A stretch of DNA of 64,000 bases from the NCBI RefSeq assembly GCF_003258595.1, contig NZ_QHHQ01000005.1, positions 62,001 to 126,000 on the forward strand, read 5' to 3'. Below are positions 19,334-28,202 of this stretch, one piece after another. Position 1 is the first letter of the stretch. Each line of letters opens with the position of its first letter. This DNA is from Acuticoccus sediminis (GTDB lineage Bacteria > Pseudomonadota > Alphaproteobacteria > Rhizobiales > Amorphaceae). A program made the position numbers and the translations under genes. The notes beneath the pieces are model-generated. The model made no database searches. It saw only the letters and a program-made list of their open reading frames with translations, and was not told the origin of the DNA.

Positions 19334-19349
19334 ACACCAGATCTGGTGT
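19334..19349. repeat. 16-bp perfect palindrome at the primase stop codon
   Basis: ACACCAGATCTGGTGT is a perfect 16-bp palindrome that runs into the stop codon of the primase gene (19351-19349 on the minus strand). There is no T-run after it, so it is a weak terminator candidate; as it borders the iteron array it may equally be a protein-binding site of the origin. Confidence 0.5.
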
Positions 19350-21880
19350 CACACGAGAGGCGCATCGGCCGCATCGGACACCATTGGAACATCTTGCAGA
19401 ATGACATCGAGATACTTCATCACGCGCCCTCTCTTCTTCTGGATACGCGTATGCGCCATCTCCTGGGCGAACCGCTTCTCGCTGAACGGCCGCATGCCGT
19501 TCGCCTCGGCCCACGCCACATATGCGCCGTAGAAGGCGCGTGCATCGACATCGTTGCCGGGCCTGGACACCACGCACGCCTTCACGAACTCGCCGACCGG
19601 GTCCATGTCGGATCGGTAATCCTCCGTCGCCGCAACGACGCCTTCCGGTGGCTTCAGCCCCTCGTTAAGGTAGCCGAGCAGCCCCTCCAGCGCCCAGTTC
19701 AGGATGCCTGAGGCCTCGGCCCCGAACTCGGCCAGCACCTCGCCCATGGGCCGCCGCTCCGAAGGCAGGAGGGTCTCTGTCCAGGGGACCAGGCACACGC
19801 GCCGAAAGACGGCGTAGTCCGAGCCTGTCGCCTGCGGCTTGTGATTGCCGGTCATCATCGCCTTGAAGACTGAGTTCAGCTCGATGAACTTCTGGTGCAG
19901 ATGGCGCACGAGCAGCGGTTCACCGCCGGTGACGAGCTTGATCGTCTCTTCCTTGAGCGGCTGCCCGCGGGGCAGTTCCGCGATGAGGACAAAGCGCACG
20001 CCGGTGAGGCGAGCCCACTCCGGTGTCGCCTGGTCGCCTCGCCGAACCTGATCGCCCGTCACGGCCTCGGCCGGAAGCGACGCCGCGTAATCCCCCATCA
20101 GCCGCCTCAGCGCCTCGCAGAAGGTTGATTTGCCGTTCGCGCCGAAGCCGTGGTTGAAGATGAGCATCTGCTCGCCCGTCAGGCCCGTCAGGGCGTAACC
20201 GGCCCATCTTTGCATCCACCAGCGGATGGCCGGATCGGGCAGGAATCGCTTGCAGAACGCCTCCCACTTCGGGCACGAAGCCCCCGGATCGTAGGCGGCC
20301 GACATGACCTTCGAGATGTGGTCCCGCTGGTCGTGCCGATCGAGCCGAACCGACCAGATCTTGCGCTCGACATCGGGGTCGGGGCACTCGGGATCGACGG
20401 CCTCGACCAGGCGCAAGGTGCCGTTCTGGACGTTGATGGCGAGCGGCTCGGCGTCGAGTTCAGGCACCGTGATCGTCGCGTGGGTTGCCGCGACGCCCAT
20501 CATCCCGGCGAGCTTCCCCGAGTTGCCGCTTTGCACCGAGTGGCGGATCCGGCTGGCTCGGCGTTGCTTCTCGGCCTTGTCGATCGCGTCCTCGCTCTCG
20601 CCCCGCGCCTCCATCGCCGCACGCTCGTCGTCGTCGATCTTTACGAGCGGCACCTCGAGGCGGATGCGGCTGGCCGTATCCTGAGCCATCCGGCTGACGG
20701 CCTCGTCGCCGCCGTCGACGTTCCAGCGCTTCCCATCCCAGACGGACCACCCGACGTTGCGAACGTGCAGGACGTGATCGCCGAACCACTCGAGGAGCCG
20801 GTGACCGTTGCCGGTGTCGTTCACCTCCAGCTCGGCGCACCGCTCCAGCGTGGCGCGGTCGAACCCGCCCCCACCGCCGCCGATCGTCGGCCCCCCACCA
20901 GGAGGCTGACCACCACCGCCGGCGCCGTCACTCCGAGGCGGGATTTGCGAGCCACGGGAACGCCATTCATCAGGGGACCGGGTTCGTGCTGCCTCGATTT
21001 CGGAGAGATCACGCGGCGAGGCGATCCCGGCGCGAAGGCCGGACTGAATGGTGCCGCGGCTCTTCTTCCGGTTCGGCCATTGGGCCGCCACGTCATCGAG
21101 CGCGGCCACAACGACGCTCTCGGAGAGCGCGCCGGCGCCGACCAGCTGGCCGAGCGCATAGGCCGTCGCGTTCAGCGTCTCGTTTCGCTCGCCGTTCGGC
21201 GCGGCGGCCGCCTTGCGCACCTCGGCGTCGAGGGCCGCGAGGGCGTACTTGCGCACCCGCTCCGAGGCCTCCACGGGCGCGCCGCGCGGCCGCGGCGGCT
21301 CCTCCTCTCTCGCGAACTTGCCGCGGCGCAGGATGCAGTCGATCAGCTCGGCCGGCGCCGCCGTGAGACCGCGTGTCGGGCCCGAGCGCCACTCGTAGCG
21401 GCGGCCATCGAGCATGATGGACGGCGGCGCGATGACGTACCCGCCCTCTCCCCGGACATCGACGTGGGCCGGGAGACCGGAGCGCGTGCCGGACCGATTG
21501 CCGAGCTTCTCGCCGGCGCCGAGGGTCGGCCAGGAATAATAGAGATGCCAACCACCCGATTGCGTGACGGCGACAATCGGCTCGCCGAGCGGTGCGCCGA
21601 TCAGCGCCTCGAGCTCGTCCCAAAGCTCCGAGCAGCTCTTCTCTCGAGGGTCGAGGTCGACGACGAAGGCCCCAAGGCCGGGCCCCGTCGGGAGCCCGAT
21701 CAAGGCCTCGGGCCAGCGTCCCCACCAGCCCCGAATCGTCCCCGCGTCGGTGGAGGCATCCTTCAGGCCGTGCTCGGTGAGTGGTCGCTTCGAACCCTTG
21801 GCCTTGTCGGCCTCGGGATTGCACGGGAAGACCGGCCACCCGCGTTTGGCGAGCGCCAGGGCGGCGTCGAGTATCGTCAT
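19349..21880 (-). CDS. Primase-polymerase/helicase fusion (Prim-Pol + D5/P4-type), 843 aa
   Basis: Residues 1-200 form a bifunctional primase/polymerase domain: GWPVFPCNPE, GLGAFVVDLDPRE with the catalytic acids, SGGWHLYYSW with the His, and VDVRGEGGYVIAPPS. A Gly/Pro-rich linker (PPRSDGAGGGGQPPGG) follows near residue 320. The C-terminal half matches the D5_N region and the phage/P4-type SF3 helicase: Walker A in NHGFGANGKSTF, Walker B-like FVLIAELPRGQ, sensor in MMTGNHKPQATGSD, then the arginine finger region AVFRRVCLVPW. It would synthesise primers and unwind DNA for phage replication. It is the largest early gene and ends at the iteron array. Confidence 0.93.
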   Translation of the reverse strand: MTILDAALALAKRGWPVFPCNPEADKAKGSKRPLTEHGLKDASTDAGTIRGWWGRWPEALIGLPTGPGLGAFVVDLDPREKSCSELWDELEALIGAPLGEPIVAVTQSGGWHLYYSWPTLGAGEKLGNRSGTRSGLPAHVDVRGEGGYVIAPPSIMLDGRRYEWRSGPTRGLTAAPAELIDCILRRGKFAREEEPPRPRGAPVEASERVRKYALAALDAEVRKAAAAPNGERNETLNATAYALGQLVGAGALSESVVVAALDDVAAQWPNRKKSRGTIQSGLRAGIASPRDLSEIEAARTRSPDEWRSRGSQIPPRSDGAGGGGQPPGGGPTIGGGGGGFDRATLERCAELEVNDTGNGHRLLEWFGDHVLHVRNVGWSVWDGKRWNVDGGDEAVSRMAQDTASRIRLEVPLVKIDDDERAAMEARGESEDAIDKAEKQRRASRIRHSVQSGNSGKLAGMMGVAATHATITVPELDAEPLAINVQNGTLRLVEAVDPECPDPDVERKIWSVRLDRHDQRDHISKVMSAAYDPGASCPKWEAFCKRFLPDPAIRWWMQRWAGYALTGLTGEQMLIFNHGFGANGKSTFCEALRRLMGDYAASLPAEAVTGDQVRRGDQATPEWARLTGVRFVLIAELPRGQPLKEETIKLVTGGEPLLVRHLHQKFIELNSVFKAMMTGNHKPQATGSDYAVFRRVCLVPWTETLLPSERRPMGEVLAEFGAEASGILNWALEGLLGYLNEGLKPPEGVVAATEDYRSDMDPVGEFVKACVVSRPGNDVDARAFYGAYVAWAEANGMRPFSEKRFAQEMAHTRIQKKRGRVMKYLDVILQDVPMVSDAADAPLV

Positions 21881-25147: not shown

Positions 25148-25396
25148 GTGCTCCGCACGAACGACCAACATTGCACTCGGGCGCACGGCCGCGCTGCCGC
25201 CAACGCCTCTGTTCCCCTTCTCTATGCGCCTGAGGCAGGGTTCGATCCCGCAACGGTCGCCCTAAGGTTCAGCCGCCAGGCCCGCCGCGAAAGCGCGGCC
25301 AAGGCGCTCGGATGGTCGCTCGCGGACTATCGCGACGTCACGGCTCAGTCGCTAGCCATCGCAGATGAAGAAGCCGACGTCGCGGGGCATGCGTGA
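25148..25396 (+). CDS. Small phage protein, 82 aa, unknown function
   Basis: GTG 25148 is chosen because AGGAGG ends 5 bases before it, the optimal distance; an ATG two bases upstream gives a different 39-codon frame with only 3 bases of spacing. The product is Ala/Arg-rich, with a helical C-terminal half (RQARRESAAKALGWSLADYRDVTAQ). TGA overlaps the next ATG by one base. No motif is recognised. It begins the plus-strand cluster of six small genes before the integrase. Confidence 0.6.
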   Translation: MLRTNDQHCTRAHGRAAANASVPLLYAPEAGFDPATVALRFSRQARRESAAKALGWSLADYRDVTAQSLAIADEEADVAGHA

Positions 25397-25704
25397 TGGC
25401 AAACCAAGCCGCACATCACGAAGACGCCGCCCCCTGGCTACTCTCCGCGATTGACAGCACCCTGACGCAGCACATCGCGGCGGGTTGCTCGCGCCGTGAG
25501 GCCGCCGGCGAGGTTGTCAACGACCTGTCTCAGGCGCTGGGCACCCTCCTCGGCGAACTGGCGACGTCCGAGCAGGACCTCTTCAATCGCAACGCATACA
25601 CCGGCCGCCTTACGCAGGCCGCAGCGCGGGTCGCCTACAGCCGCGAGGTCAGGCGCGCGGCTCGCGTAGTTTGCGCTCCGCCTCACCCACGGAGGCTACG
25701 GTGA
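25396..25704 (+). CDS. Small phage protein, 102 aa, unknown function
   Basis: The product starts MANQAAHHEDAAPWLL and is helical, with a Cys-containing basic turn (GCSRREAAGEVV) and a basic C-terminus (SREVRRAARVVCAPPHPRRLR). Translational coupling with the upstream gene (TGATG) and with the mini-SSB downstream (GTGA) places it in an operon. No domain, signal or membrane segment is recognised. A DNA-binding role would fit the basic tail but is speculation. Confidence 0.6.
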   Translation: MANQAAHHEDAAPWLLSAIDSTLTQHIAAGCSRREAAGEVVNDLSQALGTLLGELATSEQDLFNRNAYTGRLTQAAARVAYSREVRRAARVVCAPPHPRRLR

Positions 25705-25829
25705 ACCGCGTCCAGCTGATCGGCTACGTCGGCGGCGCGCCAGAGACCCGCCAAACTCCCAACGGGACGCACGTCGCCACGTTCCAGAGCTCGAACCCCG
25801 CTCCGTTTGACGACGATGTTCCGTTCTGA
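25701..25829 (+). CDS. Internally deleted single-stranded DNA-binding protein, 42 aa
   Basis: The 42 codons encode the first strand of an SSB (VNRVQLIGYVGGAPETR, matching the common start MN-K-V-x-L-I/V-G-x-L-G-x-D-P-E-x-R) with the PNGTHVATF continuation, joined in frame to the SSB C-terminal tip DDDVPF. About 100 residues of OB fold and linker are missing. GTG 25701 has GGAGG 5 bases upstream, and the GTGA overlap couples it to the preceding gene. It cannot bind ssDNA as a normal SSB, but keeps the acidic tip that docks on RecO, PriA, RecQ, exonuclease I and other SSB partners. Whether it is a decaying remnant or a tip-peptide decoy is open. Alternatively the deletion could be an assembly error. 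Confidence 0.75.
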   Translation: MNRVQLIGYVGGAPETRQTPNGTHVATFQSSNPAPFDDDVPF

Positions 25830-25839
25830 GGACGCAGCG

Positions 25840-26121
25840 ATGACCGGCCTCTGCCACACCTGCCCCTACCGTAAGGCCCTCGCCCTAAACGCGGGGACCG
25901 AGTACCTGCCACCGCTGCGCCCCGTTCCGGTAATGCAGCATTCCGATTGCCTGACGTCGGCCGCGGCTGACATGCTCGCGGCATTGCGGGCGCTGATGGA
26001 TCACGACGGCGTCGTTGCCGCCGGCCTAGACTGCGCGTTGCGTCGCGAGGTGGAACGGTTCGAGGCCGACGCCTGTCGCGCCCGCGCCGCCATTAGAAAA
26101 GCGACCGGACAGCCGCGATGA
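25840..26121 (+). CDS. Small phage protein with N-terminal Cys pair, 93 aa
   Basis: ATG 25840 has GAGGA 8 bases upstream and is preferred over an upstream TTG. The N-terminus MTGLCHTCPYRK carries a Cys-x2-Cys, and a later Cys (HSDCLT) may complete a metal site. The C-terminal half is helical and basic (LRREVERFEADACRARAAIRK). Its TGA overlaps the next ATG (ATGA). Small zinc-binding proteins of this kind are frequent near phage integration modules, and the function is unknown. Confidence 0.6.
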   Translation: MTGLCHTCPYRKALALNAGTEYLPPLRPVPVMQHSDCLTSAAADMLAALRALMDHDGVVAAGLDCALRREVERFEADACRARAAIRKATGQPR

Positions 26122-26237: not shown

Positions 26238-26523
26238 GCAACGGGCCAGGGGGACGGCGGCTGCGTTTGACACCCTCAACCGCGTCCACCTGAAGACGTC
26301 GACCCGGCGGCGGCCCGAAGTCCCGGGGACAATTCGAGGCAAGCGACAGTGCGGATGACACCCGCGACTTGCGTCCGAGCCCGCCGGCTGTCGCTCAGGG
26401 CGTCTCTGCGAGGAGCTCGCCGTTTTGCCGCCGCAAGCACTTACTGGCGTGCGGGAGCGACGTTGCGCGACATGCCACGGCTCCGGCGTCGTGCCGGCGC
26501 ACTGTTGGGGAAGGAGAACACGG

Positions 26524-26769
26524 ATGAGCGCGAAACACCGGCCAGCTGTCGTCCCCTCTGGATCGTGGCCCGCTCGAATGGGCTCGGCGATGGCGGCCGG
26601 GTACGTCGGTGAGGTGAGCGTCGAGGCGTTCCTATCCCGCGTCGGATCGGAATACCCTGGACCCGTGGTAGCGGAAGGCAGGCGGCGGCTGTGGCTGAAG
26701 AGGGATCTGGATCACGCGATCGGAAACGCGACGGAAGAGATGGTGGCCGACGCCGCAGACATCCTGTGA
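26524..26769 (+). CDS. Excisionase/AlpA-like helix-turn-helix protein, 81 aa
   Basis: The region ARMGSAMAAGYVGEVSVEAF followed by LSRVGSEYPGPVVAEGRRRLWLKRDLDHAI has the winged-helix pattern of excisionase-type (MerR-like) DNA-binding proteins: a helix with 'xMAAxYxGExSVxAFL', a 'YPxPxxxxGRRRLWLxxDLDxAI' wing. ATG 26524 has GGAAGGAG 8 bases upstream. The same frame is open upstream and includes a Cys-x2-Cys (CATCHGSG), but no good start exists for that extension. GTGA overlap with the integrase suggests coupled expression. It probably directs excision with the integrase or regulates it. Confidence 0.75.
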   Translation: MSAKHRPAVVPSGSWPARMGSAMAAGYVGEVSVEAFLSRVGSEYPGPVVAEGRRRLWLKRDLDHAIGNATEEMVADAADIL

Positions 26770-28064
26770 GCATCAAGGTCAACCTGCCGCGCTATGTGAT
26801 TGTGCGGCCACTCTCCGGAGGCAGGAGCGGCTTCTATTGGAACCCGCCGCATCGCGACAAGGCGCGCGCCACGAAGGACGGGATCACCTTCCCCTTCAAC
26901 ATCATCGCCCTCGGCGTCGACCTTGGCCAGCGCGAGCTCGACGACGCTGCGCGGACATGGAACGTTGCCCTGGACGAATGGCGCGCCGAGCTGAACATCA
27001 TGCGGGACGCCAGCAGCGTCCTGCCGTCGAAATATGGGACCATCGACTGGCTGATCGACCAGTACGTCAAGAGCCGTGACTACGCGGCGAACGTCAGCGA
27101 CCGAACCGCCAGGACCTACAGGAACGTCTTCAAGCAGGTCGGCAACCTGCCGACGAAGTCGGAGCAGACACCCCGCTTCGGTCAGGTCTCGACGAGAAGC
27201 ATCACCCCGCGTGCTGCCGACAAGATCTATGAGGCTATGTGCGAAGGCGGGAAGTTTCGCCGGGGCGAGATGGCCATCAAGCAGATGCGCCGCGCCTGGG
27301 ACGTGGTCGGGCGCCTCTACCCCGACACGATGCCGACACCGGAGCGGAACCCCTGGCGCGGTGTCGCACTGGTACGGCGCGCTTCAACGCCGAAGGCTGC
27401 GGTGACCCGGGACGTGGTCTATCACTTCGCGGAGGAGGCGTTGCGCCAAGGCAAACCGGAGGCGGCCGCGGCGGCCGTCGTGTGCTTCGAATGGTTGCAG
27501 CGTCCCGAGAACACGATCCAGCACTTCACCTGGGCGAGCTACGATCCACCGGCGCATCGCGGATGGGTCAGCGTCCAGCACCACAAGACGGGCGTGGAGG
27601 GCTGGCACCCCCTGGCCGATCCCCGGACGGGCGAGCGGCTCTATCCGGAAGCGGAAGCTGTGCTGGCGTGTGTCCCTCGCCGGGGCCTCCTCGTATGTTT
27701 GAACGCCGGCGGCAAGCCTTACGCGACGCAGGCCTTTGCCAAGCTGGTGGCGCGCATCCGCGACAAGGCACTCAGGGACGATCCCGAGAGGAATGCCGCG
27801 CTGACGGGCTTCACCCTCGACGCCTGCCGACATGGCGGCATGACGGAGCTCGAGGAGGCCGGCCTGACCGAAGGCGAAGGCATGGCGCTGTCGGCCCACA
27901 AGCAGGCGAAGGCCTATCACGGATATGCGAAGCGGACCCAGGAACGGGCGGTTGGTCCGTCGCTGAAGCGCCGCGCCTTCCGTGTCGCCGCGGAGGCCCC
28001 AAACGGCACGTCCGAGAACGCCGGGCAAACGACCGGTAGAAACGCGTCAGCTGACAGCGGTTGA
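26766..28064 (+). CDS. Tyrosine recombinase integrase, 432 aa
   Basis: The N-terminal SAM-like core-binding domain spans roughly residues 85-195 and the catalytic domain residues 205-400. Candidate active-site residues are R246 (EWLQRPENT), K274 (QHHKTG), R355 in LDACRHGG, H378 (LSAHKQA) and the nucleophile Y387 (YHGYAKRT). The usual H of the H-x-x-R box is D352 here. GTG 26766 overlaps the stop of the excisionase-like gene (GTGA). The C-terminal 35 residues are low-complexity. The gene ends 64 bp before the tRNA-Gly gene, its presumed attachment target. It performs prophage integration and excision. Confidence 0.93.
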   Translation: MSIKVNLPRYVIVRPLSGGRSGFYWNPPHRDKARATKDGITFPFNIIALGVDLGQRELDDAARTWNVALDEWRAELNIMRDASSVLPSKYGTIDWLIDQYVKSRDYAANVSDRTARTYRNVFKQVGNLPTKSEQTPRFGQVSTRSITPRAADKIYEAMCEGGKFRRGEMAIKQMRRAWDVVGRLYPDTMPTPERNPWRGVALVRRASTPKAAVTRDVVYHFAEEALRQGKPEAAAAAVVCFEWLQRPENTIQHFTWASYDPPAHRGWVSVQHHKTGVEGWHPLADPRTGERLYPEAEAVLACVPRRGLLVCLNAGGKPYATQAFAKLVARIRDKALRDDPERNAALTGFTLDACRHGGMTELEEAGLTEGEGMALSAHKQAKAYHGYAKRTQERAVGPSLKRRAFRVAAEAPNGTSENAGQTTGRNASADSG

Positions 28065-28128
28065 AACGGCACCATGCACGAACGGGGAACGAAAGGCTCA
28101 AGCCGCTGATATCGCTGGCAAAGGCGGG

Positions 28129-28202
28129 TGGAGCGGGTGAAGGGAATCGAACCCTCGTCATCAGCTTGGAAGGCTGTTGCTCTACCATTGAGCTACACCC
28201 GC
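28129..28202 (-). tRNA. tRNA-Gly(UCC), prophage attachment target
   Basis: Reading the minus strand from 28202, the acceptor stem GCGGGTG pairs with CACCCGC at 28139-28133. The D arm, the anticodon loop CTTCCAA (anticodon UCC) and the GGTTCGATTCC T arm are intact. The discriminator is U and CCA is encoded (28131-28129). The 3' end faces the prophage, so the att core is expected in the 3' half of this gene. Integration rebuilt a complete tRNA. Confidence 0.95.

Follow-up and report, generated by a model that had tools for sequence, protein, structure and literature searches.

Members of the SSB family (PF00436; PHROG 44) possess an ssDNA-binding OB fold, and an acidic C-terminal tip with a PF end is a further criterion of an SSB. 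In 50 mM NaCl, the 15-residue free tip peptide of Escherichia coli binds RecO with a K of 1.2e7 per M and PriA with a K of 2.6e5 per M, and the binding of tip peptides is indifferent to linker length, according to the portion of the study drawn on here (PMC7145534). The opposite type of construct, an SSB without its tip, appears in PMC11372144. A naturally truncated SSB is present in phage Jbug18 and, in the section of PMC12904381 that cites it, was associated with Nhi sensitivity. In the literature searched for truncated or tip-only phage SSBs, SSB decoys or mimics, tip peptides that act dominantly or compete with exonuclease I, and prophage ssb deletions, we found no natural tip-only SSB.

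The locus described here, mini-ssb, is situated in a prophage of Acuticoccus sediminis and was analyzed within a window, i.e., the whole stretch of 64,000 nucleotides under study (G000:C5:62001-126000). Its product is like the SSB family in residues 1 to 28 and in its DDDVPF tip, whereas the family has the OB fold and mini-ssb is without profile positions 29 to 104. Like the SSB-Ct peptides P9 and P15, it has a tip without an OB fold; unlike mini-ssb, these are laboratory peptides without an SSB N-terminus, as far as the portion of PMC7145534 used here shows. Its phage resembles Jbug18 in having a naturally truncated SSB, the link with Nhi sensitivity being particular to the latter. A shortened SSB encoded by two viral contigs (L110 and L114) likewise kept its N-terminus and tip and lost its middle in frame, but about 81 residues are retained there, the missing part being what remains of the OB fold together with the greater part of the linker.

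Mini-ssb and its prophage

The 42-residue product, MNRVQLIGYVGGAPETRQTPNGTHVATFQSSNPAPFDDDVPF (GTG start translated as M), matched the Pfam SSB profile with 27.4 bits (E = 3.6e-6) in a protein search, residues 1 to 28 corresponding to profile positions 1 to 28 of 104. This score is above the 26-bit cut-off, and the same match reached 22.9 bits, under the cut-off, in a six-frame genome search. PHROG 44 (SSB) matched the product with an E value of 1.7e-7. The N-terminal first-strand signature of the family is thus present, and the acidic tip with its PF end is found as DDDVPF, in agreement with the first-pass annotation, which had read an SSB N-terminal signature in frame with this tip. Its description of a 42-codon gene with a ribosome site and a coupled start is likewise borne out by the GGAGG in front of the GTG and by the TGA (25702-25704) of the preceding ORF, which overlaps this start codon. 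The statement that strand 1 and the tip are all that remains has to be amended: the tip and the missing OB fold stand, while the N-terminal part is longer than strand 1 alone, with about 28 residues kept, to which linker and tip add about 14 more.

The pattern [DE][DE][VIL]PF directly at a stop codon occurs in 1 of the 507 window ORFs of at least 30 aa, namely, mini-ssb, and in none of 8976 ORFs from ten mononucleotide shuffles, which argues against a chance origin of the tip. When mini-ssb was aligned with five SSBs (three of phages, the shortened L114 protein, and that of the host), the first segment and the tip were the common columns. The third-position GC content of mini-ssb (83%) is like that of the integrase gene; five other early ORFs measured lower (66 to 78%). 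A single-sequence AlphaFold2 model of the 42-mer has no predicted secondary structure (mean pLDDT, 61; pTM, 0.13). Because the OB fold is absent, the product should be unable to work as an SSB.

Mini-ssb belongs to the rightward early arm of the prophage, after two divergent HTH genes and before the integrase gene (Table 1). The ORF upstream of it gave no match in viral contigs, and among 385 genomes its one match is to its own genome. A likely Shine-Dalgarno sequence of the downstream 93-aa ORF (TGAGGA, 25827-25832) takes in the mini-ssb stop codon. From its position alone, the small ORF at the integrase start is a candidate excisionase gene. No match to the integrase was obtained in Pfam or PHROG. 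The 3' part of the tRNA-Gly gene (window 28111-28177) has a 92% identical copy at G000:C5:45614-45683, and this copy of the tRNA end suggests a prophage of about 44.5 kb.

Table 1. Coordinates of mini-ssb and neighboring features in the window
Feature	Position	Strand	Basis
42-codon ssb ORF (mini-ssb), probably internally deleted	25701..25829	+	sequence, Pfam SSB, PHROG 44, tip count
SSB N-terminus, codons 1-28	25701..25784	+	Pfam SSB profile 1-28 of 104; alignment
QSSNPAPF, codons 29-36: junction and leftover linker, approximate breakpoint	25785..25808	+	sequence, alignment
DDDVPF, codons 37-42: SSB acidic tip (cf. host PEPFDDDIPF)	25809..25826	+	sequence, tip count
Shine-Dalgarno GGAGG, 5 nt 5' of GTG (25701)	25691..25695	+	sequence
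Upstream ORF, 103 aa; stop overlaps mini-ssb start	25393..25704	+	
Downstream ORF, 93 aa, ATG 25840	25840..26121	+	
Small ORF overlapping integrase start; homologue in 24/24 integrase relatives	26524..26769	+	
Integrase	26766..28064	+	annotated integrase of a phage record; 24 viral-contig relatives, 37-48% identity
tRNA-Gly(tcc), attachment site	28129..28202	-	
Primase	19349-21880	-	profile match

Ten prophage proteins were compared with PHROG, five of which were assigned as terminase, portal, head protease, major head, and major tail protein; one fell into a family of unknown function and four were unmatched, some of these being perhaps wrong-strand ORFs. An Rfam search returned the tRNA and nothing else, and a defence-library scan of nine early-region proteins gave HTH matches to the regulator and no others. 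At the DNA level, similarity to the early arm was found in two phage records, confined in both to the integrase gene, and in no plasmid. The one other SSB match in the assembly is the full-length host ssb on contig C6, whose product ends in EPFDDDIPF; no piece of a lost OB fold was detected elsewhere in the genome at E values up to 1.

The genome has a second phage-like region, in which a search with mini-ssb turned up nothing convincing. Positions 26238-26387 of the window, which contain no evident gene, are 85% identical to G000:C3:851015-851163(-) in this region, and the ORF at 25148-25396 has a homologue there (L026:17015-17197; 51% identity over 61 residues).

Relatives and candidate second copies

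Integrases related to that of the prophage are encoded at 24 viral-contig loci. A full-length ssb lies upstream of the integrase gene in four of these related prophages (L087, L088, L090, and L094), and L088 has genes for RecT and an exonuclease ahead of it. The other 20 arms showed no SSB match (E up to 0.05) within the stretch compared. All eight genomes of the genus have a host ssb; a second, partial SSB match was found solely in the genome that contains the window, and none of the seven congeneric genomes has mini-ssb. With the 42-mer as query, 7 of 150 genomes, its own included, gave matches at E values up to 0.01, and those outside its own genome covered residues 1 to 33 and lay in open frames of at least 156 codons. 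By tblastn, 622 records of phages and 5000 or more of plasmids were matched. Most of the 60 phage and 40 plasmid matches listed are annotated SSBs with 38 to 61% identity, and a few carry other annotations (e.g., chrA). The band of 60 to 80% identity contained two phage records and one plasmid record. Among the matches listed from phages, plasmids, viral contigs, and genomes, no close intact relative of mini-ssb was found.

Viral contigs and genome contigs were also scanned for patterns in which an SSB start is soon followed by an SSB tip. The first pattern demanded a start codon directly before Asn, and the second demanded TTC-TGA for the tip. Applied to 22 full-length SSBs (from 38 loci, the 16 on the minus strand being left out), the first pattern recognized the N-terminal half in 6 of 22 and the tip half in 22 of 22. 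From viral contigs the two scans retrieved 4 and 10 matches, and 4 more came from genome contigs. When read, none of the latter was an SSB; 12 of the 14 viral matches lay in longer ORFs resembling SSB, of which they covered the last strand and the tail, and that in L031 contained no tip-only SSB ORF. Thus, among the 14 viral and 4 genome matches there is no clear second tip-only SSB, the remaining one (L034) being doubtful. The viral-contig scan from which loci were sampled comprised at least 120 stretches, of which 80 loci were taken. Among the matches listed, the viral ORFs that are complete and have the SSB N-terminus as their anchor number 75; all of them are at least 107 residues long from the Asn (range, 107 to 191), and 53 of the 75 have a PF end.

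Two further candidates were dismissed. Peptide patterns made from mini-ssb hit 11 stretches of viral contigs, and the one confirmed by tblastn (residues 33 to 50) was an unrelated 88-aa ORF. PHROG 25370, which has 48 positions and no assigned function, was considered as a natural mini-SSB family; its profile is the N-terminus of an ordinary SSB. It matches 265 of the 289 genomes of the class, and, among the matches listed, the open frames have at least 144 codons, full-length SSB being matched too.

The L034 look-alike (L034:1803-1922, minus strand) is a viral ORF of 39 aa that starts with MNGVNKVILVGSL and ends with RRNDLPF. Compared with phage SSB starts, 9 of its first 10 residues agree, followed by 1 of 26. 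Its start codon and the stop codon of the preceding ORF share an ATGA, and an integrase-like ORF comes after it, with a hairpin and a T-run between the two as judged by eye. The end is DLPF without an acidic run. Neither Pfam nor PHROG gave an SSB match, tblastn in phages and plasmids gave nothing, and its N-terminal pattern occurs once in the viral contigs. On these features, it is doubtful that L034 is a second mini-gene of the same kind as mini-ssb.

The L110/L114 protein came from a survey of NRVQLIG-type SSBs (21 loci, 20 of them complete) and derives from IMG/VR sample 3300001605. It is a phage SSB of 106 aa (L110:3138-3458, minus strand; L114:4233-4553) with an internal in-frame deletion and a retained tip; Pfam SSB positions 1 to 76 of 104 are matched, about 81 residues run to ...KVYIE, and ...QYADDEIPF follows. 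The two contigs are 99.7% identical over 7542 bases, with 20 mismatches. That they share the deletion despite these differences suggests that deletion alleles that keep the tip can persist.

Origin of mini-ssb

Mini-ssb is probably a lone in-frame deletion remnant in a phage able to use the host SSB. A prophage ssb would have lost in frame the greater part of its OB fold and linker, amounting to roughly 65 to 150 codons as judged from the 107- to 191-residue range of the 75 viral SSB ORFs. The 42-residue product would for the most part be unfolded and would be devoid of SSB-type ssDNA binding. The phage could do without an SSB of its own because the host presumably supplies one. The frame may survive through recency or, alternatively, because translation through mini-ssb would couple the overlapping preceding gene to the following gene. 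A remnant is supported by the presence of both SSB ends in one frame with 28 of 104 profile positions matched, by the full-length ssb in 4 of 24 related prophages together with the absence of mini-ssb from the seven congeners, by the host gene being the one other SSB match in the genome, by the elimination of all 4 genome and 13 of the 14 viral pattern matches as tip-only SSBs, by the minimum of 107 aa among the 75 viral SSB ORFs, by the smaller tip-keeping deletion in L110/L114, and by the lack of predicted secondary structure in the 42-mer.

Some observations count against a remnant. The frame, the start signal, and the exact tip are all intact, and a random deletion preserves the frame about one-third of the time. 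The prophage does not look generally decayed, since the five structural genes assigned by PHROG are open. A full-length ancestor in this particular arm has to be assumed, because 20 of 24 related arms are without an SSB match. The persistence of the L110/L114 allele and L034 as a possible second mini-gene also weigh on this side. When the first-pass annotation offered a young in-frame deletion as one reading, the deletion agrees with the full-length relatives, with L110/L114, and with the lack of a clear second copy; its youth finds no such backing, because the deletion is not datable with no close intact relative found.

It is unlikely that the true prophage ssb is full-length and that the contig dropped its middle. 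A single assembly, in 44 contigs, covers the locus, which leaves room for such an error, but the junction preserves the reading frame and sits where the first segment meets the linker, contig C5 is unbroken across the prophage and beyond, and by eye no long repeat was seen at the join. Distinctly improbable is the proposal that induction leads to synthesis of the peptide and that its DDDVPF occupies the SSB-binding pocket of host partners such as RecO or PriA, by which host recombination or restart may be kept off phage DNA. The intact tip, close to that of the host (APFDDDVPF versus EPFDDDIPF), and the good translation signal are in its favor, as is the binding of free tip peptides to RecO and PriA in E. 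coli in the portion of PMC7145534 considered. L034, with its SSB-like start (9 of 10 residues), RRNDLPF end, overlap with the preceding gene, and integrase-like ORF next to it, slightly raises the odds of such a decoy and of the bolder version given below and slightly lowers those of a remnant; however, it is without an SSB family match, an acidic run, or relatives in phages, plasmids, and viral contigs. The first 28 residues of a decoy would be idle baggage, and the peptide would presumably have to contend with the numerous tips that host SSB tetramers present. No clear conservation was seen in the viral contigs, genomes, and congeners searched, nor was the same product, proposed in the first pass as something to look for in related prophages, clearly present among the 24 integrase relatives within the stretch compared; for the idea that selection keeps a tip-only decoy, our searches gave no evidence of conservation or selection.

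A bolder version, in which a prophage ssb turned into a free-standing tip peptide that titrates a high-affinity SSB partner of the host, RecO first, with L034 and a few others perhaps arising independently beside an integrase gene, is very improbable. We hold it to be just as remote that mini-ssb is an escape allele, the loss of the OB fold hiding the phage from SSB-sensing host defences while host SSB covers the ssDNA. A response to phage SSB is reported for Nhi, Hachiman, retron Eco8, and AbpAB in the parts of PMC12904381 and PMC10732053 used here, but the truncated Jbug18 SSB went with Nhi sensitivity and full-length SSB with escape (PMC12904381, same part), and the retained tip would be left unexplained.

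If mini-ssb is a deletion remnant, a temperate phage can shed the portion of its SSB that binds ssDNA and still look complete in other respects. Together with L110/L114, it would then bring the internal phage ssb deletions that keep the tip to at least two among the data searched. Should the peptide act, it would be a natural counterpart of the tip peptides used for probing the SSB hub, and if both a decoy role and its independent repeats were true, such peptides would be the smallest anti-recombination factors of their kind.
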